From Alphaproteobacteria bacterium (GTDB lineage Bacteria > Pseudomonadota > Alphaproteobacteria > Elsterales > Elsteraceae): a stretch of DNA of 64,000 bases. The position numbers and the translations under genes were made by a program. The first letter of the stretch is position 1. Every line of letters starts with the position of its first letter. The stretch covers positions 1-64,000 of the forward strand of contig RDXE01000054.1 of assembly GCA_004292755.1 (NCBI GenBank). The letters are read 5' to 3'. Shown in pieces: positions 2,435-15,347 of this stretch. The notes beneath the pieces were generated by a model. That model was not told the origin of the DNA. It searched no databases and was given only the letters and a program-made list of their open reading frames with translations.

Positions 2435-3460
2435 ATGAAGCGTGGAGTGTTGGCGTCGGTGATGGCGCTGGGTGTGTCGATGGCGGCGGCGACGGCTGGT
2501 GCTCAAACTCCGACCAATGTTCGCTTCAGCCTGGATTGGGCCTTCCAGGGACCCCAGGCGCCGTTCCTGTTGGCGGTGGAGCGCGGCTATTTCCAGGCCG
2601 AAGGCATCAACATCACCATGGATCGCGGCTTTGGCTCCGGCGACGTGCCGTTGAAGATCCGTGCTGGCACCTATGACATCGGGTTCGCGGACATCAACCC
2701 GACCATTCGCCTGAAGGCGCAGGAGCCAGCGGTGGATCTGGTCGCTGTCGCGATCCTCTACGATGCCTCGCCCTTGGCGGTGATGACGTTGCGCCGTCAG
2801 AACATCACCCGCCCGCAAGACCTTGTGGGCAAAACCTTGGCCGCGCCGGAAGTGGACGCCGGGCGCCAGTTGTTTCCAGCCTTTGCTCGCGCCACCGGTC
2901 TGGCACTGGACAGCGTGCGCTGGATGAACGTTACCCCGCAGCTGCGCGAAACGATGCTGGCCCAGGGGCAGGCCAATGCGATCACTGGTTTCACCACCTC
3001 CGGCATTCTGTCGTTGCGGGCAGCCGGTGTGGCCGATGCTGACATTGTGACCCTGCGCTACCAGGATTTCGGCGTTGCGTTGTTGTCGTCCTCCATCATC
3101 ACCACGCGGGCGTGGGCGAATGCCAACCCGCGGGCGACTACGGGCGTGCTGCGCGCGGTGTTCAAGGCGCACCTGGATGCAATTGCCAATCCGGACGCTG
3201 CAATCCAGGCACTGGTTCGCCGCGACCCGCTGGTCGATCCGCGCATTGAGCGCGACCGCATGATGATGTCGCTGAACGAACTGATGTTGACCCCGCATGT
3301 CCGGGCCACGGGTATTTCTGAGGTTGATCCGGCCCGCCTGCAAGCGGCGATCGACACCGTGCGCACCTCCTTTGGCATTGAACGTGCGGTGCCGGCCGCG
3401 GAAATCTACACCCCGCAGTTTCTGCCGCCGCTCGCTGAGCGGGCCATCCCGCGTAGCTAA
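2435..3460 (+). CDS. ABC transporter periplasmic substrate-binding protein, NMT1/SsuA-like
   Basis: A protein of 341 residues with a Sec signal peptide (MKRG, hydrophobic core, cleavage probably after AGA, residue 23) and an NMT1/SsuA-type solute-binding domain. LDWAFQGPQAPFLLAVERGYF near the mature N-terminus is the family's ligand-pocket start, and later GxGxGDVPLKI and YDIGFADINP follow the NMT1 pattern. It acts in the periplasm and delivers substrate to the ATPase and permease encoded directly downstream (15-base gap). Being first in an operon that continues into urate- and xanthine-type enzymes, it most likely binds a purine or purine-derived ring; this is inference. AAAGGA precedes the ATG. 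The 254-base leader upstream deserves a search for a xanthine-responsive NMT1-motif riboswitch. Confidence 0.87.
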   Translation: MKRGVLASVMALGVSMAAATAGAQTPTNVRFSLDWAFQGPQAPFLLAVERGYFQAEGINITMDRGFGSGDVPLKIRAGTYDIGFADINPTIRLKAQEPAVDLVAVAILYDASPLAVMTLRRQNITRPQDLVGKTLAAPEVDAGRQLFPAFARATGLALDSVRWMNVTPQLRETMLAQGQANAITGFTTSGILSLRAAGVADADIVTLRYQDFGVALLSSSIITTRAWANANPRATTGVLRAVFKAHLDAIANPDAAIQALVRRDPLVDPRIERDRMMMSLNELMLTPHVRATGISEVDPARLQAAIDTVRTSFGIERAVPAAEIYTPQFLPPLAERAIPRS

Positions 3461-3474
3461 GAGGGGTCTCGGCC

Positions 3475-4308
3475 GTGACCCATCCCTTCGTTCATCTTCA
3501 TAGCGTAAGCCTCACCTATGCGGGAGCGGAGGGGGGATCCGGCACGCTTGCCCTGGATGGTTGCACCATGGGGGTTGGCCGCGGCGAGTTTGTCGCCGTG
3601 GTCGGCCCCTCGGGCTGCGGGAAGTCATCCCTGATGAAGCTGGTCACTGGTTTGGTGCCGCCCTCGCGCGGTTCCATCGAGGTTGCCAATGCCGAGGTGA
3701 CTGGACCACTGAAGATCGTGGGCATGGCGTTTCAGAACCCAACGCTGCTGCCATGGCGCACCACGCTGCAAAACGTGATGCTGCCGTTGGAGATTGTTGA
3801 GCCTCACCGCTCCCGTCTGAACCGCGACAAGGCGGCTTATGTGGAGCGTGCCAAGGCCTTGCTTGCCACCGTCGGCTTGGCGGGGTTTGAGGAGAAGCCG
3901 CCCTATCAACTGTCCGGTGGCATGCAGCAGCGGGCCTCGCTCTGCCGTTCACTGATCCACGAGCCCGACCTGTTGATGCTGGACGAGCCCTTCGGCGCCC
4001 TGGACGCGTTCACGCGCGAGGAGCTCTGGGGGGTGCTGCAGGAGGTGTGGATGGAGCGGCGCTTCACCTGCATCCTGGTCACCCACGACCTGCGGGAGGC
4101 CGTCTACCTCGCGGATCGGGTCTTGGTTATGTCCAACCGTCCCGGTCGCATCGTCAGCGAGCACACGGTGTCGCTGCCGCGTCCACGCACCCTGGAGACC
4201 ACGTTCTCCAAGGAGTTTGTTGAGATCACCCATCGCCTGCGCGATGAAATCAGCCGCGTGCGCAAGGGCTTGGACCCCGTTGCCGCGGCACCGGAGCAAG
4301 CAGCATGA
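3475..4308 (+). CDS. ABC transporter ATP-binding protein, NitT/TauT type
   Basis: A protein of 277 residues, the cytoplasmic ATPase of the importer. Walker A GPSGCGKSS is at about 44-52, the Q-loop in AFQNPTLLPW, signature LSGGMQQR from about 146, Walker B LLMLDEPFGALD from about 166 and the H-loop THDL at about 203-206. The TLLPWRT element after the Q-loop is typical of the nitrate/sulfonate/taurine ATPase family. It starts with GTG at 3475, 7 bases after a GAGGGG ribosome site; no ATG gives the complete domain. Its stop overlaps the permease start (ATGA), so translation is probably coupled. All ATPase motifs are intact. Confidence 0.93.
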   Translation: MTHPFVHLHSVSLTYAGAEGGSGTLALDGCTMGVGRGEFVAVVGPSGCGKSSLMKLVTGLVPPSRGSIEVANAEVTGPLKIVGMAFQNPTLLPWRTTLQNVMLPLEIVEPHRSRLNRDKAAYVERAKALLATVGLAGFEEKPPYQLSGGMQQRASLCRSLIHEPDLLMLDEPFGALDAFTREELWGVLQEVWMERRFTCILVTHDLREAVYLADRVLVMSNRPGRIVSEHTVSLPRPRTLETTFSKEFVEITHRLRDEISRVRKGLDPVAAAPEQAA

Positions 4309-5108
4309 GCTGGCGCAGCCTATCCCGCACCCGTCGGATCGAACTGGCCATGCCGTGGTTGGTGACCATCGGCATGCTGGTGGTTTGGGAGGTGGGTGTG
4401 ATCGCCTTCAAGGTGCCGAGCTTCATTCTGCCGGGGCCGGTGGAAGTGTGGCAGGCGCTGGTGCGGTTCAACGGCCCGATCTGGCAGCATGCGGGGCACA
4501 CGCTGTTCACCACCGTGCTGGGGTTTGCCTTCGCCGTGGTGTTTGGCGTGCTGCTGGGGGTGGCAATTGGGTCGTCGCGGCTGGTGTACAACGGGCTCTA
4601 TCCCGTGCTGATCGGCTTTAACTCCGTGCCGAAGGTGGCCGTGGTGCCGGTCTTGGTGGTTTGGTTCGGCATTGGCACGGTGCCAGCCGTGATCACCGCC
4701 TTCATGATCTCTTTCTTCCCGATCGTGGTGAATGTCGCGACGGGCTTGGCCACTGTGGAGCCGGAGTTGTCAGACGTGCTGCGCTCCCTCGGGGCCCGCC
4801 GCCGCGACATTCTGCTCAAGGTCGGCCTGCCGCGGGCGATGCCATATCTCTTTGCGTCCCTGAAGGTTGCCATCACTCTGGCGTTTGTCGGCTCGGTTAT
4901 CTCAGAGACGGTCGCCTCCAATGAGGGGATCGGCTATTTGATGATCCAGGCGTCAAGCCGCTTCCAGATACCGCTGGTGTTTGCAGGCTTGGTGGTGATC
5001 GCGGTGTTGGGGATCGTGATGTATGTGCTCTTCGCTCTGGTGGAACGGCGCTTCACCGGCTGGGCGATGCGCGGCACCCAGTCCGCGACTGTGACCACGG
5101 GCAGCTGA
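4305..5108 (+). CDS. ABC transporter permease, SsuC/TauC type
   Basis: A protein of 267 residues with about six hydrophobic transmembrane segments and a BPD-transp-1 domain. The EAA loop that docks to the ATPase is seen as ELSDVLRSLGARRRDILLKV (about residues 152-172) followed by LPRAMPYL. SEGIGYLM-like sequence (NEGIGYLMIQ) follows, as usual for this subfamily. It completes a binding protein-ATPase-permease importer and overlaps the ATPase gene by 4 bases. A 32-base gap with AGAGGGGG separates it from the FMO-like gene, consistent with one transcript. The transported compound is unknown; purine-type rings are suggested by the downstream enzymes. Confidence 0.92.
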   Translation: MSWRSLSRTRRIELAMPWLVTIGMLVVWEVGVIAFKVPSFILPGPVEVWQALVRFNGPIWQHAGHTLFTTVLGFAFAVVFGVLLGVAIGSSRLVYNGLYPVLIGFNSVPKVAVVPVLVVWFGIGTVPAVITAFMISFFPIVVNVATGLATVEPELSDVLRSLGARRRDILLKVGLPRAMPYLFASLKVAITLAFVGSVISETVASNEGIGYLMIQASSRFQIPLVFAGLVVIAVLGIVMYVLFALVERRFTGWAMRGTQSATVTTGS

Positions 5109-5140: not shown

Positions 5141-6586
5141 ATGACTGGCCTCGCCGCACTGGAACAAGCCGTCGCCCGCGAGCTTCAGCTGACCGCCTAT
5201 CCCAACAAGCCCTGGGTGCCGGAGCGCCGTCAAGACGGCCAGACCGTGCTGGACGTGCTGGTGGTTGGCGCCGGACAGGGTGGTCTTGCAACGGCATTCG
5301 CCTTGCTGCGCGACCGCATCGACCGGGTGCTGGTGGTGGACGACAACCCCCCAGGGGCGGAGGGGCCGTGGGCCACCTTCGCGCGCATGCATACGCTGCG
5401 TACGCCAAAGCATGTTACCGGCCCCGATCTTGGTCTGCCCTCGCTGACCCCTGAGGCGTGGTATACCGCCCGCTATGGTGGGGAGGCGTGGCAAGGGCTG
5501 GGCAAAATCTCGCGCCTGGACTGGCAAGCCTATCTGGACTGGTTCCGCACGGTCACCCGCCTGCCGATCCGTCACGAAACCAAAGTCGGCGGGCTGGAGC
5601 CGGTTGGCGATCTTTGGCGTGTCCCCCTGATCAGCTCCCGTGGGGAGGAGGTGGTCTGGGCGCGGCGCGTGGTGCTGGCGACCGGTATTGATGGGTCTGG
5701 TGCGTGGGAGGTGCCGGCCTGGGTCACCCGCGATCTGCCCCGTGAGCGCTGGGTCCACACCTCCGACCGCATCGACTATGCCCGCTTTCGGGGCAAACGG
5801 GTTGCCGTGCTGGGCGCCGGCGCTTCGGCCTTTGATTGTGCTGGCACAGCGTTGGAGGCTGGTGCTGCCGAGGTGCGCCTCTATGCGCGGCGGACCGACC
5901 TGCCGTTGGTCAACCCCTATCGGTGGATGGAGCAAACTGGCTTCCTGAAGCACTATTGGTCGCTGCCCGATGATGCCAAATGGCAGATGATGACCCGCAT
6001 CTGGACGATGAATCAGCCGCCAACCACCGACTCGATGGAGCGCTGCCGAAAACACGCCGTGTTTGCCCTCCACACCGGTTGCCAGTGGGAGGGGGCCGTG
6101 GTGGAGGGAGATGCAATCCACTTCCGTGGCACCGCGGCGCCGCCGGCGGATGTGTTGATCCTGGGCACTGGCTTTGTGATCGACCTGTCCCGCCGCCCTG
6201 AATTGGCCCATGTTCATCAGGACATCGCGGTTTGGCGGGATTGCTTCACCCCACCGGCTGAGCTTGCGCATCCGGTCCTCGCCAGTTTCCCCTACTTGGC
6301 GCCTGACTTCTCCCACCTCCCGAAACCGGGCCGCCATGCCCCGCATTTATCCCGGCTGCACACCTACACCTTTGGCGCTATGCCAAGCGCTGGGCTGTCC
6401 GGTGCCTCGATCAGTGGGATGAAGTTCGCGACCCGGCGGCTGGTGGACGGCATCGGCCAATCCCTATGGCTGGAGGATCAGGGTCACCATGTCGCCTCCC
6501 TCCTGGCCTATAACGATCCGGAGTTAGCGGTCGCGCTGGCCACCCCTGATCCACTGCCAGGGGGGACAGCATGGGCGGCCGATTGA
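5141..6586 (+). CDS. FMO-like FAD/NAD(P)H flavoprotein, candidate urate-oxidising enzyme
   Basis: A protein of 481 residues built like a class B flavin monooxygenase. An FAD Rossmann motif [12 protein letters not shown] lies at about 43-54 and a second, NAD(P)H-binding one ([12 protein letters not shown]) at about 222-233. Just before the second is [10 protein letters not shown], resembling the FMO/Baeyer-Villiger fingerprint that ends in H-x3-Y/W. A third nucleotide-type strand, [12 protein letters not shown], is near residue 345. It is not the 385-residue PHBH-like HpxO type. It lies between the importer and uraH, overlapping uraH by 16 bases, while no classical uricase is seen in the window. 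The simplest inference is urate to 5-hydroxyisourate oxidation or another ring hydroxylation. Family placement is firm, reaction is not. Confidence 0.82.
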
Positions 6587-6918
6587 CCACCCACGTTCTC
6601 GACACGGCGCGCGGCTGCCCTGCCAAGGGCGTGGTGGTGGAGTTGGCGCGCCTGGATCACGGCACGGTGATCCCGTTGAAGATGGTCGCCACCAATGCCG
6701 ATGGCCGCACCGATCAACCGCTGTTGAGCGGTGACGAGCTGGTGGCGGGCAGTTACCAGTTGCTGTTCCGCATCGGGGATTACTTCCAGGACACGGGCCT
6801 GACCAACGCCTTTCTGGATGAGGTGCCGATCCGGTTTCGGATCGCCGATGCCAGCGCGCACTATCATGTGCCGCTGCTGGCCAGTCCCTGGTCCTACACC
6901 ACCTATCGCGGAAGCTGA
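6571..6918 (+). CDS. uraH: 5-hydroxyisourate hydrolase (transthyretin-like)
   Basis: A protein of 115 residues, the full length of a bacterial HIU hydrolase, which opens 5-hydroxyisourate to OHCU after urate oxidation. The family landmarks are all present: N-terminal [14 protein letters not shown] with the active-site His, DGRTDQPLL in the middle, [18 protein letters not shown] at the end, with the diagnostic C-terminal YRGS tetrapeptide. No signal peptide is seen, so it is cytoplasmic. The ATG at 6571 follows AGGGGGG and lies inside the end of the FMO-like gene, and a GTG start for the next gene follows its stop by two bases. This is the strongest marker that the operon handles urate. Confidence 0.96.
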
Positions 6919-6920
6919 GC

Positions 6921-7703
6921 GTGGCCGACGGTCTGATTGCCCGGTCCCGGCATCGCATCGGCCCGTTTCATCTACACCGTCCCTCCAGCTTGGCCGAGGC
7001 TTTGGACCTGCTGCCGACAGCCGCCCCCATCGCTGGCGGCGTCGAGTGGGTGGAGGTGATGAAGCGCGGTGGTACCCCCGCGGCCCTGCAAGACATCACT
7101 AAGCTACCCGACCTTGCCACCATCCGTCAGGAGGGGGAGTGGTTGCGCCTGGGTGCGGCCGTGACCCATCGCCAGCTGTTGATTGATCCGATTGTGGAAG
7201 GCGCGGTTGGCGGCTTTCGCCACGTGTGGCGGGAGATTGGCAATCCGCGCATCCGCGCGCAAGGCACCCTCGGTGGCAATCTCGCGGCCAGCAATCCCGT
7301 CTATGACCTGCTGCCAGTGTTGCTGGCCCTGGAGGCGCAGTTGGAGGTTGCCGATGCCAGCGGTACCCAATGCCTGCCCATTCAAGCGCTGGCGCAACGC
7401 CCGCGGCACAGCTTGATCCTGGCTGTGCGGGTGCGCGCAGGCGCGCAACTGGTGTTTGACCGCAGCCTGCGTCCCGTTATCGGGATCGCCGCCGTGCGAC
7501 GGGAGTCGTCCATCCAAGCGGCCATTGTCTGGGCACAGGCGGAGGTGCGCGCCGCCCCCCTCGACGATCCGGCCGACTGGTGCGATCAGCTGCCCCACTG
7601 GGTTGATGATGCCCATGGTACGGCGATCTATCGCGCGGCTGTTGCACCGGTGCTGGCCGCGCGGGCGCGGGCGCGCCTGCTACTCCCCGTGGGTGCCGCA
7701 TGA
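6921..7703 (+). CDS. xanthine-dehydrogenase-type FAD-binding subunit (CoxM/XdhB-like)
   Basis: A protein of 260 residues, the FAD subunit of a three-subunit molybdenum hydroxylase. It passes electrons from the iron-sulfur subunit to FAD and onward. It starts with a FHLHRPSSLAEALDLL segment and IAGGVEWVEVMKRG (FAD-binding), followed by IGNPRIRAQGTLGGNLAAS, a strongly conserved FAD-binding stretch, and DLLPVLLALEA. It starts with GTG at 6921 two bases after the uraH stop and overlaps the 2Fe-2S subunit gene by 4 bases. In operon context it is read as part of a purine or xanthine hydroxylase. Confidence 0.88.
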   Translation: MADGLIARSRHRIGPFHLHRPSSLAEALDLLPTAAPIAGGVEWVEVMKRGGTPAALQDITKLPDLATIRQEGEWLRLGAAVTHRQLLIDPIVEGAVGGFRHVWREIGNPRIRAQGTLGGNLAASNPVYDLLPVLLALEAQLEVADASGTQCLPIQALAQRPRHSLILAVRVRAGAQLVFDRSLRPVIGIAAVRRESSIQAAIVWAQAEVRAAPLDDPADWCDQLPHWVDDAHGTAIYRAAVAPVLAARARARLLLPVGAA

Positions 7704-8170
7704 CCCAGCTGGTGCTGAATGGCCGCGCAGTTACGGCTCCGGCCGATCCCCAGCTGCTGCTGGGCCTCTGGCTACGGGACAGCCAGGGCCTCACTGGCTT
7801 GAAGCTCGCCTGTGACCAGGGCGTGTGCGGCGCTTGCACCGTGCTGGTGAACGACCAGCCGATGGGTGCCTGCCATCTGTTCGTCTGGCAGGTGGAGGGT
7901 CAGCGGGTTGAGACGATTGAGAGCCTTGGCTCGCCAACGCGTCTGCATCCGCTGCAGCAGGCCTTCCATGACCACGGCGCCTTGCAGTGCGGCTTTTGCA
8001 CGCCGGGAATGATCCTGGCAGCCCTTGCCCTGCTGCGCGTCAATCCCCACCCGACACGGGAGGAGGTGCAGGCGGCCCTGTCCGGCAATCTCTGTCGCTG
8101 TACGGGGTACCGGCCAATCATCGATGCCGTGCTGGCAGCGGCCGAGGCGATGGCGGAGAGTCCGCCATGA
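7700..8170 (+). CDS. xanthine-dehydrogenase-type 2Fe-2S subunit (CoxS-like)
   Basis: A protein of 156 residues with two [2Fe-2S] domains. The plant-ferredoxin-like N-terminal centre is ligated by the cysteines of CDQGVCGACTVLV plus a later Cys in GACHLF. The helical C-terminal domain has the second centre's ligands in CGFCTPGMIL and NLCRCTGY. It is the electron-transfer subunit between the molybdenum site and FAD. Length and motif order are standard for the CoxS/XdhA-type small subunit. It overlaps both flanking genes by 4 bases, so the three subunits are probably made together. All eight expected cysteines are present. Confidence 0.94.
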   Translation: MTQLVLNGRAVTAPADPQLLLGLWLRDSQGLTGLKLACDQGVCGACTVLVNDQPMGACHLFVWQVEGQRVETIESLGSPTRLHPLQQAFHDHGALQCGFCTPGMILAALALLRVNPHPTREEVQAALSGNLCRCTGYRPIIDAVLAAAEAMAESPP

Positions 8171-10434
8171 GCCACCCCAATCAGCTTGAGACCGTTGGGG
8201 TTCCTGTCGCCCAAGTCGGCGCAATGGCGCGGGTGCTGGGGGAGCAGCCGTATCCTTGCGACCTCGCAGCTGCTGGGCTGTTGCACGCGGCTGTGTTGCG
8301 CAGCCCACACGCCCATGCGCGCATCCGCTCGATCTCTACTGAGCTGGCGGCACAGCAGCCTGGCGTGGCAGTGGTGGCGACGGCTGCGGATTTGGATGGT
8401 CCCCACACCCGCTTTGGCGTGCGCGTGCGCGACCAGCCGGTGCTGGCCAGTGGTGTTGTGCGCCATGTGGGCGAGCCTGTGGCGGCAATCGCTGCTGCCA
8501 CACCCCAGCAAGCGCTGGCCGCCCTGGCGTTCATCCAGGTGGAGTATGAGGTGCTGGCGCCGGTGCCCACCATTGCCGCTGCGCTGGCCGCTGATGCCCC
8601 AGCCTTGTTCCCAGAAGCGTCCGCCACCAGCCTTCCCGTTTATGGCCCTGGTGCCGCCGCCTGTGCCGAGCCCAGCCCCAACATCCTGTGGGAGTTCACT
8701 CTCCGCGACCCGACCTTCGATGCCGTCTGGGCTGGTGCGGCACAGGTGTTTGAGGATCGCTACAGCTTTGCCCGCGCTTCCCACTATCACCTGGAGCCCT
8801 TTGCCTGCCTCGCCCGCTGGAGTGGGGAGGGGTTGAGCATCGACACCTGCAACCAGGATCCTTTCCTGTTGCGCCAGGACCTTGCGCGCATCTTTGCCCT
8901 GCCAGAGCATCGCGTCCGCGTGGCGGCCCATGCCACTGGCGCGGGGTTCGGCGCGAAATCCTATTGCAAACTGGAACCTCTGGCGGCGCTGCTCGCGCGT
9001 TTGGCCCGTCGACCCGTCCGTCTTGTCTCCAGCTTTGATGAGGAGATGCTGTCGGTCACCCAGCATGGGGCAGAGATCGTGGTGCGCACCGCCCTCAGCC
9101 GTGACGGCGCCCCGCTGGCGCGGGAGATGCTGATTGACCTGGACGGGGGCGCCTATGCCGATGCCTCCGCCCTGGTTGCGGACAAGGCGGGCTATCGCGG
9201 CTTTGGCCCCTATCGCTGGCAGGCCGTGGCCTGCCGGGTGCGGGTGGTGCGCACCACGACGGCCCCTGCTGGCAGCTATCGCGGCTTCGGCGGCACCCAG
9301 ACCAGCTGGGCGGGCGAGCGGCAGATCGACAGCCTGTGTCGCCGTCTCGCCCTTGACCCGATCGCGTGGCGTCGGGCGCATCTGCTGCGCGTTGGCGAGG
9401 CGTGGTGGCCCGGCGAGGCAGGGATGGACAGCGATTTGAGCGGCGGGCTAGCCGCCGTGGTGGCTGCCCTCGACCCGCCCGCCGCCCCACACGCAGCGCG
9501 GCCTCGCGGGGTGGGGGTGGCGATTGGCTTGAAGGATGGCGGCGGCGAGGCGCGCCCCGCCAATGCCGCGGTGCGTCTGACCGCTGACGGCACCGCCATT
9601 GTTCAAGCGGGCGTGGTGGAAATAGGACAGGGCGCCACCACGGCGCTGGCGCAAGTGGCGGCCGAGCGTCTGGGTCTGCCGCTGGATCGCGTTACGGTTG
9701 CAGCAGTCGACACCGATCTCTCCCCCCATGATCTTGGCACCCATGCCAGCTCCGGTATGGCGGTGACGGCCGCGGCGGTTGCCGCTGCAGCCGACGATGT
9801 GGTGGCACAGCTGCGCGCCCTCGCGGGCCGAGCCGAAGCCGTGGTGCACGCGGGCACCGTGGAGGGCGAGCCAGTGGCTAGTCTGCTCAAGCGCCGGTTT
9901 GGCCCCTATGGCGCTGACGTGATCGGTCGCGCCACGGTGCAAGCACCCCGAAGCGAGGGGCTGCCCCTGCGCAGCCAACGGCTGTACTGGATGCCGTCCT
10001 GGGCTGCGGCTGAAGTGGAGGTTGACCCGCTGACTGGTCAGGTGCGCGTGCTGCAGCTGGTGGTTGCAGGGGACCCTGGCACTGCTGTCAACGTCCTGGG
10101 CTGCATCGGCCAAGTGGAGGGGGCTGCAGTTCAGGGACTGGGCCAAGCCTTGTTTGAGCATCTGCGTGTGGACAGCGCGGGCCAACCGCTCAACGCCACC
10201 CCCTGGTCCTATCGCGCACCACGGGCAACCGACCTGCCACCGGTGTTCCGCACCTTGATTCTGGAAAGCGGCCTCGGCCCTGGTCCGTTTGGCGCCAAAG
10301 GCATCGGCGAAAGCGGCAACCTCGCCATCCCAGCCGCCATCGCGAACGCCATCGAAGCCGCCACCGGCGCAGCTCTTACCAGCCTACCCCTCACTCCGGA
10401 GGCAGTGTTTCGGGCGTTGCATGTGGATAGCTAA
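8167..10434 (+). CDS. molybdopterin-binding hydroxylase subunit, xanthine dehydrogenase family
   Basis: A protein of 755 residues, the molybdenum cofactor subunit. Family landmarks in order are LLHAAVLRSPHAHARI (N-terminal domain), GAGFGAKSYCKLEP, PAGSYRGFGGTQ, a GQGATTALAQ segment, and GPFGAKGIGESGN, where Glu715 aligns with the catalytic Glu of the KGxGE motif. It lacks the AYRCSFR loop of aerobic CO dehydrogenase, so it is not a CO oxidiser. The ATG at 8167 overlaps the small-subunit stop (ATGA); an apparent upstream extension in frame is rejected. With uraH upstream, xanthine or hypoxanthine to urate is the best substrate guess, but these trimeric enzymes also act on other N-heterocycles. 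No xdhC-like maturation gene is present in the window. Confidence 0.9.
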   Translation: MSHPNQLETVGVPVAQVGAMARVLGEQPYPCDLAAAGLLHAAVLRSPHAHARIRSISTELAAQQPGVAVVATAADLDGPHTRFGVRVRDQPVLASGVVRHVGEPVAAIAAATPQQALAALAFIQVEYEVLAPVPTIAAALAADAPALFPEASATSLPVYGPGAAACAEPSPNILWEFTLRDPTFDAVWAGAAQVFEDRYSFARASHYHLEPFACLARWSGEGLSIDTCNQDPFLLRQDLARIFALPEHRVRVAAHATGAGFGAKSYCKLEPLAALLARLARRPVRLVSSFDEEMLSVTQHGAEIVVRTALSRDGAPLAREMLIDLDGGAYADASALVADKAGYRGFGPYRWQAVACRVRVVRTTTAPAGSYRGFGGTQTSWAGERQIDSLCRRLALDPIAWRRAHLLRVGEAWWPGEAGMDSDLSGGLAAVVAALDPPAAPHAARPRGVGVAIGLKDGGGEARPANAAVRLTADGTAIVQAGVVEIGQGATTALAQVAAERLGLPLDRVTVAAVDTDLSPHDLGTHASSGMAVTAAAVAAAADDVVAQLRALAGRAEAVVHAGTVEGEPVASLLKRRFGPYGADVIGRATVQAPRSEGLPLRSQRLYWMPSWAAAEVEVDPLTGQVRVLQLVVAGDPGTAVNVLGCIGQVEGAAVQGLGQALFEHLRVDSAGQPLNATPWSYRAPRATDLPPVFRTLILESGLGPGPFGAKGIGESGNLAIPAAIANAIEAATGAALTSLPLTPEAVFRALHVDS

Positions 10435-10560
10435 AGTGGCATTGCCGGGGAAGGTTTAGGCAGCCCTTGTCAAGGAAATTTTTCATGATTCAGATAAGTC
10501 CCAGAAATATCTTGAAGAATCGGACTGGTGCCAGTACCTTTGTCCGGCATGGAGGCCGCG

Positions 10561-10944
10561 ATGTCGTATACCCAAGCGATGGGGGCGCCAGTTCGAGATC
10601 GGGACAGAGTGTTAACCGAGGCTGTGCTAAAGGCGGCAGGGTTGCTCGATCTTTCCGATCACGCGCTTGAGCAGATATTGCAACTGGATGCGGGTATCAT
10701 CGCCAGCGTACGCGATGGGCAAACCGTTTTCGCAGAGGGTAGCACGGCGTTCAGCCGTGGCACGTCCTTAGCACGTCTCTTTCGGTCATTAGATGCTCTC
10801 GTTGGCGGCAATGAAGACATCGCCCGACAGTGGCTCCGGACAAAAAACACGGTTCTAAAGGCAATTCCGCTGGAATTGATTCAAAGTGGCGATGGATTAG
10901 ATCATGTTATCGTCTATCTTGACTCCAGACGCGCTCAAATCTAA
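10561..10944 (+). CDS. RES/Xre-type antitoxin (DUF2384)
   Basis: A protein of about 127 residues of the Xre-like antitoxin family that pairs with RES toxins. It has an N-terminal helical region (DRVLTEAVLKAAGLLDLSD) and a C-terminal MbcA/ParS-type toxin-binding part (LFRSLDALVGGNEDIARQW, then a long helix ending LDSRRAQI). Start 10561 follows GGAGG by five bases; an in-frame ATG at 10528 would give 11 more residues. It overlaps the toxin gene by 41 bases. Such antitoxins neutralise the toxin and usually repress their own promoter; a weak TTGTCA/17 bp/TCAGAT promoter-like pair is at 10467-10495. Codon and base use is less GC-rich than the flanking xanthine dehydrogenase, suggesting acquisition. 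Confidence 0.86.
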   Translation: MSYTQAMGAPVRDRDRVLTEAVLKAAGLLDLSDHALEQILQLDAGIIASVRDGQTVFAEGSTAFSRGTSLARLFRSLDALVGGNEDIARQWLRTKNTVLKAIPLELIQSGDGLDHVIVYLDSRRAQI

Positions 10945-11671
10945 TCGAAGAGTATTCGAAGGATTGGTTTGGCGATCTGTTGAGGCGCAGCATAAAATAT
11001 CGACCAGAAAGCTGGTCGATTCGATAGAATCGCAAAGCCTGTTGGAAGAGATTTTGGAAAAGTATAAGCCATTAGTGCCAGTGCAGTGCCAACATCTACA
11101 TTACTTGTTGTCGACACCTTTTCGATATGACTCGACTCCACCCTTAGGGTCGCGCTTTCGCCGTGCCGGACAACGCGAGGCGGTGTTTTACGGTGCTGAG
11201 CGCTCAGAGACTGCCATAGTCGAGATGGCCTTCTATCGTCTTTTGTTCTTCGCGGAGTCGCCTGGGTTGAACCCGAGAGGCCAATACTCTGAATACACCG
11301 TCTTCTCGGCAAAGGTTAAAACAGGGTCATTGATTGATCTGAGTGAACCGCCGTATGCCGCTTACGAACAACACTGGTCACATTTGAGTGATTACCTCCC
11401 GTCCCAGACTCTCGCAGATCAACTGAGGCAGGAGCATGTGGACGGCATCCGATACAAATCAGTGAGGGATATCTCGGGTGGGCGGAATTTAGCCCTATTC
11501 TCATGTTCGGTTTTTGTTGAACCTAAGCCGGTTGACCAGCAAACCTGGAGATTGGTCATCGGTTCCACTACGATTACAGCCATCTGCGAATCAACACGGG
11601 ACTTCTATGAAATTCCGATTTCACAGTTCCACGCCGATCCGCGTTTAGCAGTCATCACCCAGCGCACATAG
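10904..11671 (+). CDS. RES-domain toxin
   Basis: A protein of 255 residues with a central RES domain. Members of this family are ADP-ribosyltransferase-like enzymes that deplete cellular NAD+ (known for the family). The motif Arg, Tyr and Glu can be recognised in SRFRRAGQREAVFYGAERSE and AIVEMAFYR (about 82-115), with a later GRNLALFSCS giving the Ser. It starts within the antitoxin gene, which is the normal antitoxin-first arrangement. The pair sits between the xanthine-dehydrogenase genes and the allantoate-hydrolase gene and is unrelated to purine breakdown; it is probably an inserted stabilising or anti-phage module. Its stop is 31 bases from the convergent hydrolase gene. Confidence 0.9.
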   Translation: MLSSILTPDALKSNRRVFEGLVWRSVEAQHKISTRKLVDSIESQSLLEEILEKYKPLVPVQCQHLHYLLSTPFRYDSTPPLGSRFRRAGQREAVFYGAERSETAIVEMAFYRLLFFAESPGLNPRGQYSEYTVFSAKVKTGSLIDLSEPPYAAYEQHWSHLSDYLPSQTLADQLRQEHVDGIRYKSVRDISGGRNLALFSCSVFVEPKPVDQQTWRLVIGSTTITAICESTRDFYEIPISQFHADPRLAVITQRT

Positions 11672-11701: not shown

Positions 11702-12976
11702 TCACACCACCCCCGCCATCGCAAGCAGGGTGGCGGCCAGAACGCGGGTGCCGTTGGTGAGGTCCTGTGGCGTTGCGAATTCGGCTTCGTTGTGGCTGAC
11801 GCCACGCTCGCAGGGAATGAAGATCATGCCAGCTGGGGCGAGGCGGGCGACGTAGCCAGCGTCGTGACCGGCTCCGGACGGCATCACGAGGTAGGGCAGC
11901 CCAAGCGCCTTCGTCGCGGCCTCTACTCGATCAACCACCTGTTGGTCGAACACCATCGGTGCGCTGGCATTGGTGACCCGCACGGTTGCGGTGCAGGGGG
12001 CAACGGCGGCCGTGATGGTGGCTGGAATGGCATCGGCCAAACGGTCGAGGGTGGCTTTGTCCGGGTGGCGCATGTCGATGGTGAAGTGCACGCGGTTCGG
12101 CACCGTGTTCGGGCTGCCAGGGTCTACCAGAAAGCGGCCAATGGTGAAGCGCAGCGTGTCCTCTGGGTCACGCGTTACGTCGTACAGGGCGCTGACCACG
12201 GCGTGGGCCGATCGCAAGGCGTCGCGGCGCTGGCCAACGGGGCAGGTGCCTGCGTGGGCTGTCTCGCCGGTGATGTCCACCTCGAACCAGCGCATGCCCT
12301 GGATGCCGGTGACCACGCCGATGCGCGCTCCCGCTGCCTCCAGGCGTGGTCCCTGCTCAATGTGCGCTTCCACATACCCGCCCACGACGCCCGGCAGGGG
12401 CCGCGTGATCGGAGCAGGCGTGGCGGCCAGCGTCGCTGCCAGGGCGTCGGCAAAGCGCACGCCGCTGGTGTCGCGCACCTCGGCAAACGCCTCGACTGAT
12501 TTCTGACCGGCGAACACCATCGAGCCCATGGTGCCGGGCGCGAACCGACCGCCCTCCTCATTGGTCCAGGCAACCACCTCCACGGGAGCGACCGTGGCGA
12601 TGCCCGCGTCCTCCAAGGCTTCCAGCACCTCAAATCCAGCGAGCACGCCATAGATGCCATCAAACCGGCCACCGCGCGGTTGGGTGTCCATGTGGCTGCC
12701 TGTAACGATTGGCGCGCGGCTGGACTCCGTGCCGCGGCGGCGAATGTAGAGGTTGGCGATGGCGTCCTGGCTCACCTCAAACCCGCGGGCCGTGGCCCAG
12801 CCAACCAGCATCTGCCGGGCGGCGATATCCTCCGCCGTGAAGCAGGCGCGGTTGACGCCCGCGCGGTCGGGCCGCGGTCCAGGGATTGCGCCATGAGCCG
12901 CCATATCCGCGTGGCGCTGCCACAGGCGATCCTGGTTGATGCTGGCAAGCAGGGTGGCTGGCAGGGCAGCAGACAT
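11702..12976 (-). CDS. allC: M20-family amidohydrolase, probable allantoate amidohydrolase
   Basis: A protein of 424 residues of the Zn-dependent AllC/HyuC group, cytoplasmic. Metal ligands are visible in GSHMDTQPRGGRFDG (His95, Asp106), TNEEGGRF (Glu140/141), VEAHIEQGP (His205) and GVSHNEAEF (His395). The SGAGHDA motif near residue 365 is typical of the carbamoyl-amidase and allantoate branch. The start at 12976 follows TGGAG at 7 bases; an upstream in-frame extension lacks conservation and was dropped. Lying between the xanthine oxidation genes and puuE, it most likely hydrolyses allantoate to ureidoglycine/ureidoglycolate. N-carbamoyl-amino-acid hydrolase and beta-ureidopropionase are alternatives within the same family, so the symbol is provisional. 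Confidence 0.78.
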   Translation of the reverse strand: MSAALPATLLASINQDRLWQRHADMAAHGAIPGPRPDRAGVNRACFTAEDIAARQMLVGWATARGFEVSQDAIANLYIRRRGTESSRAPIVTGSHMDTQPRGGRFDGIYGVLAGFEVLEALEDAGIATVAPVEVVAWTNEEGGRFAPGTMGSMVFAGQKSVEAFAEVRDTSGVRFADALAATLAATPAPITRPLPGVVGGYVEAHIEQGPRLEAAGARIGVVTGIQGMRWFEVDITGETAHAGTCPVGQRRDALRSAHAVVSALYDVTRDPEDTLRFTIGRFLVDPGSPNTVPNRVHFTIDMRHPDKATLDRLADAIPATITAAVAPCTATVRVTNASAPMVFDQQVVDRVEAATKALGLPYLVMPSGAGHDAGYVARLAPAGMIFIPCERGVSHNEAEFATPQDLTNGTRVLAATLLAMAGVV

Positions 12977-13117
12977 GATGGCTCCACAGGTGCACAGATG
13001 ACGGTTGGAGGGAGGCTTGCGCCTACCGCCCACCAAGACTTGTTCCAAATCCAAATGTAAGCCTGCGGAACGGCGATGGCGTCCGTCAAGGCTGCCGAGC
13101 AGTCGACGGCGGAGGGA

Positions 13118-14410
13118 CTATGCCGGTTCCCGCTCCGGCATCAGACAGCCCGTCAGGTCCGCACCGCTGAGGTCCGCCCCTTCCAGCTTGGCGTCGGTCA
13201 GATTGGCATCGGTCAGCAAGGCCCGCCGAAGGATTGCACCAGCCAGATTGGTTGGCAGGGAATTCCCGGTGCTCTCCCCCGTCGCCAGATTGACGAGGGG
13301 CAGCGGCGACAAGTCAGCTTCTTCCAGATTGGCGTCGGTCAAATCCGCCTTCGAGAGATCGGTGCCAAGGAAACAGCCGCCGCGCAAGTCGGCCTCAATC
13401 ATCCGCGCGCCGGTCAAGTTGGCGGCCAGCAACCGTGCCCCGATCAACGTTGCCCGGCTGAGGTTGGCGCCGGACATGTCGGCGCACGCAAGGTCAAGAC
13501 CGGTCAAATCCAGCCCACTCAAATCAATGCCGTGGGCAACCATGCGCACGCCGTCGCGTCCCTCCGTGTGGAACCACAGCAGGTGCTGAAGGTAGGCATC
13601 TTGGAACGCCTTGGGCAGATGCTCAATCCGCGTGGCGACAAAGCTGCCCGAAGTGTTGGCATTGCGCAGGCGGGTGCCGGTGAGGTCGGCGCCCATCAAA
13701 TTTGTGCGGGTGAGCTGAGCGCCGTCGAGAGAGGCATCGCGCAGCTTCGCCCCCACCAGACTGGCGCCGTCCAGGCGGGAGCCGGACAGGTTCGCCCCTT
13801 CAAGGTCGGCGAAGGCAAGATCCACACCACTCAGATCAGCGCCCGCCAAGTCCACCGAACGCGCCTTCAGCCCCACCATCGAGGCGCCCGCGAGCTGCGC
13901 GCGCTGAAGGTTGGCATTGTCGAGCTTGGCCCCAACCAGCGTGGTGCGCAGCAATTCCTCCGGCTTGCCGACGGTTTGCAGGCGCCCAGCCGACAGGTTG
14001 GTATCCGACAGGTCAGCACCGCGCAGGTTGGCCAAGCGCAGACGGGCGCCGCGCAAATCTGCCCGGTGGAGAATCGAATCCGTCAGCACGGCCTGGGTGA
14101 GATCGCAACAGAACAAGTCCGCAAAGCTAAGATCGCAGGAGGCGATGGTTGCCTTGACCAAACTGGCGCCCGACAGCTTGATTTCCCGCAGCTGCAGATT
14201 GCGCAGCTTTAACCCCTTCAAATCCCGTCGCGACAGGTCAGCCCGGACACCTCCCGGCTGGCGATGCACATGACGACCATGGCGGGCAAGCATCGCCCGC
14301 AGATCATCGTGAGAGGGGGGAGGCTCAAGCGTTGACACGACTGCCAAGATTCCCTGACTTGTTGTTTCTGTCCAGTGGGTGCCACTGGGTGCGACGGTGG
14401 TGCTCACCAT
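13118..14410 (-). CDS. two-module pentapeptide-repeat protein
   Basis: A protein of about 430 residues made almost entirely of A(D/N)LxG-type pentapeptide repeats, which fold as a right-handed quadrilateral beta-helix. The first run spans about residues 56-252. It is followed by a helical linker at about 255-294 (HLPKAFQ through the LQHLLWFHTEGRDG segment) and a second run from about 295 to the end. A similar LARHGRHVHRQPGG lead-in precedes the first run, so the protein looks like two copies of a lead-in plus helix module. No signal peptide or enzyme domain is seen. It is encoded between allC and puuE, divergent from puuE. The ATG at 14410 has no good ribosome site; a GTG at 14338 is an alternative. 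Function unknown. Confidence 0.85.
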   Translation of the reverse strand: MVSTTVAPSGTHWTETTSQGILAVVSTLEPPPSHDDLRAMLARHGRHVHRQPGGVRADLSRRDLKGLKLRNLQLREIKLSGASLVKATIASCDLSFADLFCCDLTQAVLTDSILHRADLRGARLRLANLRGADLSDTNLSAGRLQTVGKPEELLRTTLVGAKLDNANLQRAQLAGASMVGLKARSVDLAGADLSGVDLAFADLEGANLSGSRLDGASLVGAKLRDASLDGAQLTRTNLMGADLTGTRLRNANTSGSFVATRIEHLPKAFQDAYLQHLLWFHTEGRDGVRMVAHGIDLSGLDLTGLDLACADMSGANLSRATLIGARLLAANLTGARMIEADLRGGCFLGTDLSKADLTDANLEEADLSPLPLVNLATGESTGNSLPTNLAGAILRRALLTDANLTDAKLEGADLSGADLTGCLMPEREPA

Positions 14411-14432
14411 GGGTTGGAGGCGAGGCAGTCCA

Positions 14433-15347
14433 ATGACACAAGCAGCGTATCCTCGCGATCTCGTCGGCTATGGCCGCACTCCACCCCATGCCGCTTGGCC
14501 GAACGATGCGCGTATCGCAATAAGCTTTGTCTTAAACTACGAAGAAGGTGGCGAGAACTGCATTTTGCACGGCGACCCCGCCAGCGAGGCATTCCTGTCA
14601 GAGATTGTGGGCGCACAGGCCTTGCCCGGTGTGCGCCACCTGAACATGGAATCAATCTATGAATACGGCAGCCGGGCTGGGTTCTGGCGCCTTCATCGCT
14701 TGTTCACCCAGCGCCAGTTGCCGGTCACCGTCTACGCCGTCGCGATGGCGTTGGAGCGTCACCCAGAGGCCGCCGCTGCCATGGTCGAGGCAGGCTGGGA
14801 GATTGCTTCCCACGGCTGGCGTTGGATCGAGCACCAGTACATGGATCAGGAGGAGGAGCGTCGCCACATCCACACCGCCATCGACAGTTTGACCCGCATC
14901 ACTGGGCGGCGTCCGGTCGGGTGGTACACGGGCCGGTGTTCACCCAACACCCGCGCGCTGGTGGTGGAGGCGGGGGGCTTTTTGTATGACAGCGACAGCT
15001 ACGCCGACGATCTGCCCTATTGGGAAACCGTGGCAGGCAAGCCGCATCTGGTGATCCCCTACACCCTCGACAGCAACGACATGCGCTTTGCAACCGCCCA
15101 GGGCTTCAATTCGGGTGACCAGTTCGAAGCCTATCTGCGCGACGCGTTCGACGTGCTGTATGCCGAGGGGGCGGACCAGCCAAAGATGCTCTCGATTGGT
15201 CTCCACTGCCGCCTGATCGGCCGCCCCGGGCGGATTGCCGCGTTGCAGCGGTTTCTGGATCACATCCAGTCCCATGATCGGGTGTGGGTGTGCACCCGAG
15301 AGCAGATCGCCCGCCACTGGCACGCCACCCATCCACCCCGCGGCTGA
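14433..15347 (+). CDS. puuE: allantoinase, PuuE (polysaccharide-deacetylase fold)
   Basis: A protein of 304 residues of the metal-independent allantoinase type found in uricolytic bacteria, which hydrolyses allantoin to allantoate. The N-terminus PRDLVGYGRTPPHAAWP and NYEEGGENC (about 35-43) are diagnostic of PuuE, and the NodB-like fold continues through EIASHGWRWIEHQ and GWYTGRCSPNTR. It ends in KMLSIGLHCRLIGRPGR. ATG 14433 matches the family N-terminus and is preceded by GGAGG 12 bases upstream; in-frame upstream ATGs only add non-conserved residues. Some relatives are fused to OHCU decarboxylase (UraD); this one is not. It completes the allantoin to allantoate step beside the AllC-type hydrolase. 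Confidence 0.95.
   Translation: MTQAAYPRDLVGYGRTPPHAAWPNDARIAISFVLNYEEGGENCILHGDPASEAFLSEIVGAQALPGVRHLNMESIYEYGSRAGFWRLHRLFTQRQLPVTVYAVAMALERHPEAAAAMVEAGWEIASHGWRWIEHQYMDQEEERRHIHTAIDSLTRITGRRPVGWYTGRCSPNTRALVVEAGGFLYDSDSYADDLPYWETVAGKPHLVIPYTLDSNDMRFATAQGFNSGDQFEAYLRDAFDVLYAEGADQPKMLSIGLHCRLIGRPGRIAALQRFLDHIQSHDRVWVCTREQIARHWHATHPPRG

Follow-up and report, generated by a model that had tools for sequence, protein, structure and literature searches.

A predicted HpyO-type urate hydroxylase gene overlapping uraH in an alphaproteobacterium of the Elsteraceae

The window, meaning here the whole 64,000 nt stretch that was analysed (positions 1 to 64,000 of contig RDXE01000054.1, assembly GCA_004292755.1), contains a flavoprotein gene that overlaps a downstream uraH gene by 16 bases. 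Open reading frame calls bear out this arrangement as originally predicted, with 5141-6586 (+) encoding 481 aa and uraH lying at 6571-6918. The features of the region are as follows.

1377-2372, - strand: creatininase-family amidohydrolase (PF02633), pathway membership not certain
2435-3460, + strand: NMT1/SsuA-like ABC substrate-binding protein (PF09084), possible purine importer
3475-4308, + strand: ABC transporter ATPase (taurine/nitrate-type NCBIfam matches)
4305-5108, + strand: ABC transporter permease (PF00528)
5141-6586, + strand: HpyO-type FAD/NAD(P)H flavoprotein, predicted urate hydroxylase, 481 aa (ORF, Pfam, uraH/uraD linkage in many lineages, signature residues, tree, AF2 model)
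5267-5284, + strand: first Rossmann motif GAGQGG, predicted FAD site, residues 43-48 (sequence; glycines 43, 45 and 48 invariant in 41 relatives)
5813-5830, + strand: second Rossmann motif GAGASA, predicted NAD(P)H site, residues 225-230 (sequence; G225, G227 and A228 invariant in 41 relatives)
6571-6918, + strand: uraH, 5-hydroxyisourate hydrolase, C-terminus YRGS (TIGR02962, PF00576)
6921-7703, + strand: molybdenum hydroxylase FAD subunit (PF00941; under the NCBIfam xanthine dehydrogenase cut-offs)
7700-8170, + strand: molybdenum hydroxylase [2Fe-2S] subunit (Fer2, Fer2_2)
7987-10434, + strand: molybdenum hydroxylase large subunit (longest ORF; homology from about 8188)
11702-13054, - strand: M20-family allantoate amidohydrolase-like protein (hydantase TIGR01879 above cut-off)
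14379-15347, + strand: puuE allantoinase (TIGR03212, 547 bits, cut-off 425)

With regard to the pathway genes, the presence of uraH in the operon is upheld by a score of 133 bits against the 87.5-bit cut-off of the NCBIfam hydroxyisourate hydrolase equivalog and by the YRGS end of the product, and PuuE, expected to act later in the pathway, likewise clears its cut-off. The M20 amidohydrolase scores 426 bits with the PRK09290 allantoate amidohydrolase model (cut-off 452). The suggestion that xanthine dehydrogenase-type genes supply urate stands only in part: a trio of the XDH superfamily is indeed present, but none of its members exceeds a xanthine dehydrogenase cut-off, and the top NCBIfam match of the large subunit, to pucD, scores 335 bits where 784 are required. 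Because no gene meets such a cut-off, urate formation by this trimer is proposed conditionally; it may act as a xanthine dehydrogenase, just as the NMT1-type ABC transporter may act as a purine importer. A genus mate also keeps ABC genes beside its flavoprotein gene, and upstream of that gene (L044, 1080-6672) lie LysR, allophanate hydrolase and ABC transporter genes, the transporter following the allophanate hydrolase gene, which suggests a connection with urea or allophanate use. At 10528-11671 an Xre/MbcA/ParS-type antitoxin gene is paired with a RES-domain toxin gene, likely a toxin-antitoxin module, and this pair separates the molybdenum hydroxylase genes from that of the allantoate amidohydrolase. 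At 13118-14410 a 430-residue protein consisting chiefly of pentapeptide repeats is encoded divergently from puuE and overlaps its start.

The flavoprotein itself is named by no NCBIfam model, and its family-model matches are limited to broad FAD/NAD(P) families, with NAD_binding_9, Pyr_redox_3 and Lys_Orn_oxgnase above their Pfam cut-offs; annotated relatives carry only the labels 'NAD(P)/FAD-dependent oxidoreductase' or 'hypothetical protein'. Both Rossmann motifs anticipated in the original prediction are found, but the H-x3-Y fingerprint claimed alongside them is not: the protein contains only HTYTF at 407-411 and a conserved His206 followed by TSDRIDY, and the canonical FMO fingerprint FxGxxxHxxx(Y/F) is absent between its Rossmann motifs. 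An AF2 model (pLDDT 90.7) displays a class B monooxygenase fold, for which the best Foldseek matches are ornithine, putrescine and cadaverine N-hydroxylases. The proposal of a fold unlike that of known uricases holds against Uox and PuuD, and against HpxO by the literature; it presumably does not hold against HpyO.

The assembly, rated 99.9 % complete, was searched family by family for other urate oxidases. Neither uricase (PF01014) nor PuuD (PF06181) has a match anywhere in the genome, and the best match to HpxO (NF033623) scores 43 bits, well short of the 500-bit cut-off, with the flavoprotein itself not among the matches to that model; the impression from the window that uricase and HpxO are lacking thus extends to the whole genome. 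By comparison, uraH is present in all seven family genomes outside the genus and PuuD in six of these (in one case split into two pieces), the seventh having PF06181 only as a short 35-bit match. Short PF06181 matches of 34-36 bits in other genomes were not counted as PuuD, as they cover only part of the model. Since PuuD is absent here, yet found in 6/7 of these relatives, the flavoprotein occupies in this genus the place that PuuD holds in most related genera. In the genus mate uraH was not found in an assembly that is 88 % complete and whose contig stops within the flavoprotein gene.

Beyond the family, 80 relatives were recovered from named genomes in a single scan; in 59 of their 80 loci uraH or uraD is present within the stretch fetched, versus none of 14 outgroup paralogues. 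Eight Xanthomonas loci share the order allC-pucG-puuE-uraD-FMO-uraH, Niveispirillum has uraD-FMO-uraH, and the gene is clustered with uraD and uraH, in most cases also with puuE or pucG, in Acetobacteraceae, Sphingomonadaceae (Sphingomonas), Phenylobacterium, Parvibaculum and Niveispirillum and, amongst the Bacillota, in Anaerobacillus and Sporolactobacillus. The original prediction called for a check on whether genomes with this gene lack other urate oxidases; the representative carriers examined have no Uox, no full-length PuuD and no HpxO above its cut-off. Two near relatives (L045 and L063), on contigs that do not contain uraH, adjoin an 8-oxoguanine deaminase gene scoring above its cut-off; the product of this enzyme is urate. 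Relatives on plasmids of Rhizobium, Agrobacterium, Thioclava, Aminobacter and others were inspected and excluded as paralogues outside purine metabolism. Non-purine paralogues at L015, L018, L137, L138 and L139 recur within a distinct cassette conserved in rhizobia, alongside genes for a peroxidase-related protein, a CMD-domain or hypothetical protein, an octopine/nopaline dehydrogenase-like enzyme and an ABC transporter.

A urate oxidase of Xanthomonas, described in PMC4562309 as isofunctional with but non-homologous to HpxO, has been named HpyO. The same source gives its cofactors as FAD and NAD(P)H and places hpyO in a large family with many paralogues. HpyO is the FAD-dependent urate hydroxylase published for Xanthomonas campestris by Michiel et al. 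in 2012 (cited via PMC4562309; EC 1.14.13.113). Because the flavoprotein gene of Xanthomonas is flanked by uraD and uraH, and Uox, PuuD and HpxO are lacking there, its product is almost certainly the published HpyO, the two being equated by synteny and exclusion rather than by sequence. K22879, the term for a FAD-dependent urate hydroxylase, turned up only in one Caballeronia, where it annotates a COG2072 flavoprotein. Since HpyO is already published, and the same family sits between the Xanthomonas uraD and uraH genes, the new kind of enzyme implied by the original prediction falls away. The window flavoprotein shares 44 % identity with its X. euvesicatoria counterpart across 469 residues and is probably a divergent HpyO-type member, which makes for a sound identification but not for a novel type of enzyme.

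As a means to tell urate-linked members from the many paralogues, a signature was defined from five groups linked to uraH/uraD (the window protein excluded): 19 positions that these groups conserve and that are rare in the 14 outgroup paralogues. The window flavoprotein keeps 16 of the 19, the genome's own paralogue 10, and the outgroup rows 0-3. In the tree, a superclade of all purine-linked rows together with the window protein is split from ten non-purine paralogues at 100/100. The window protein and that of its genus mate (73-74 % identical) share a long stem of about 1.1 changes per column. Topology tests inside the superclade reject neither a single purine-linked clade (p-AU 0.19) nor a grouping with the lineage of the genome's own paralogue (p-AU 0.42). 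The tree alone was therefore set aside as proof of orthology with Xanthomonas HpyO, and the assignment of the window protein is one of context and signature residues, not of phylogeny.

Taken together, 5141-6586 is predicted to encode an HpyO-type urate hydroxylase converting urate to 5-hydroxyisourate ahead of UraH, a reading to which we assign a probability of roughly 0.88. The analysis establishes the gene, the fold predicted for its product, the linkage and a genome without other urate oxidases; substrate and chemistry are inferred, the latter from the family. Gene context across many lineages supports the urate role well, and because the genome is without uricase, PuuD or an over-cut-off HpxO, whilst most of its family relatives possess PuuD, this part of the original prediction is likely right. 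In the proposed mechanism, the flavoprotein would be a single-component class B monooxygenase in which NAD(P)H reduces FAD, O2 would react with the reduced FAD to give C4a-hydroperoxy-FAD, and urate would be hydroxylated at C5. The resulting 5-hydroxyisourate would then be hydrolysed by UraH from the overlapping next gene. OHCU decarboxylates spontaneously, without an enzyme, so that this step could proceed without UraD, to be followed by PuuE and then the M20 amidohydrolase. In this manner, the flavoprotein would supply the urate oxidation step, for which the curated family models detect no enzyme in this genome.

UraD and a canonical XdhB are absent from the genome, as is any PF00860 xanthine/urate permease, the last being present in 11 of 14 control genomes. 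Because UraD, a canonical xanthine dehydrogenase and the permease are all lacking, a variant purine route is conceivable, in which the window protein and that of its genus mate, on their long branch, would represent a functionally shifted HpyO that hydroxylates another 8-oxopurine. Were this so, supply of the 8-oxopurine would fall to the ABC transporter together with the non-canonical molybdenum hydroxylase; we regard it as unlikely. It is quite unlikely, too, that the protein, as a class B monooxygenase from this superclade, hydroxylates some other purine or N-heterocycle, rather than urate, and feeds the UraH/PuuE pathway. The long stem branch with 3 of 19 signature residues changed, the departure of the molybdenum hydroxylase genes from canonical XDH and the occurrence of wider-family paralogues in unrelated operons all lend this some weight; however, the established substrate of UraH is 5-hydroxyisourate, and no other enzyme to make it was found in the genome.

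There is also the prospect that the urate oxidase is a different protein, either the own paralogue or an unknown enzyme, and that 5141-6586 has another role in the operon. The paralogue is 44 % identical to the flavoprotein, is encoded on contig 67 at 72952-74346 (L003, about 6968-8347), and is not firmly parted from it by the tree. It lies, however, near a molybdenum hydroxylase cluster with a CoxG-domain gene, has no uraH, uraD or puuE match within 16 kb and keeps only 10 of the 19 signature residues, which renders this reading very unlikely. That the operon is decayed or repurposed, its uraH a remnant and its flavoprotein without a urate role, might account for the missing UraD, canonical XdhB and PF00860 permease, but is scarcely credible given intact overlapping reading frames, UraH and PuuE above their cut-offs, and an OHCU decarboxylation that needs no enzyme.

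Amongst characterized proteins, the predicted fold of the HpyO-type flavoprotein finds its best structural matches in the class B enzymes PvdA, SidA, DfoA and putrescine N-hydroxylase, although these N-hydroxylating monooxygenases are only 13-18 % identical, act on amines and reside in other gene contexts. PuuD (PF06181), a membrane cytochrome c urate oxidase, serves the same pathway step and is used by most sister genera, but is a membrane protein unrelated to the flavoprotein and absent from the window genome. HpxO of Klebsiella (NF033623) shares the predicted reaction and the use of FAD and NAD(P)H, whilst belonging, by the literature, to a distinct hydroxylase family whose model the flavoprotein does not match. 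The closest likeness is to HpyO: both are flavoproteins non-homologous to HpxO that serve, or are predicted to serve, a uraH/uraD pathway in the absence of Uox, PuuD and HpxO. The window protein differs from HpyO in its separate long branch and three changed signature residues, and its genome in the lack of uraD and the placement of the gene beside an NMT1-type ABC transporter and an XDH-superfamily trimer. In this way, the known HpyO solution would extend to a divergent branch of the Alphaproteobacteria, in which it occupies the position of PuuD.
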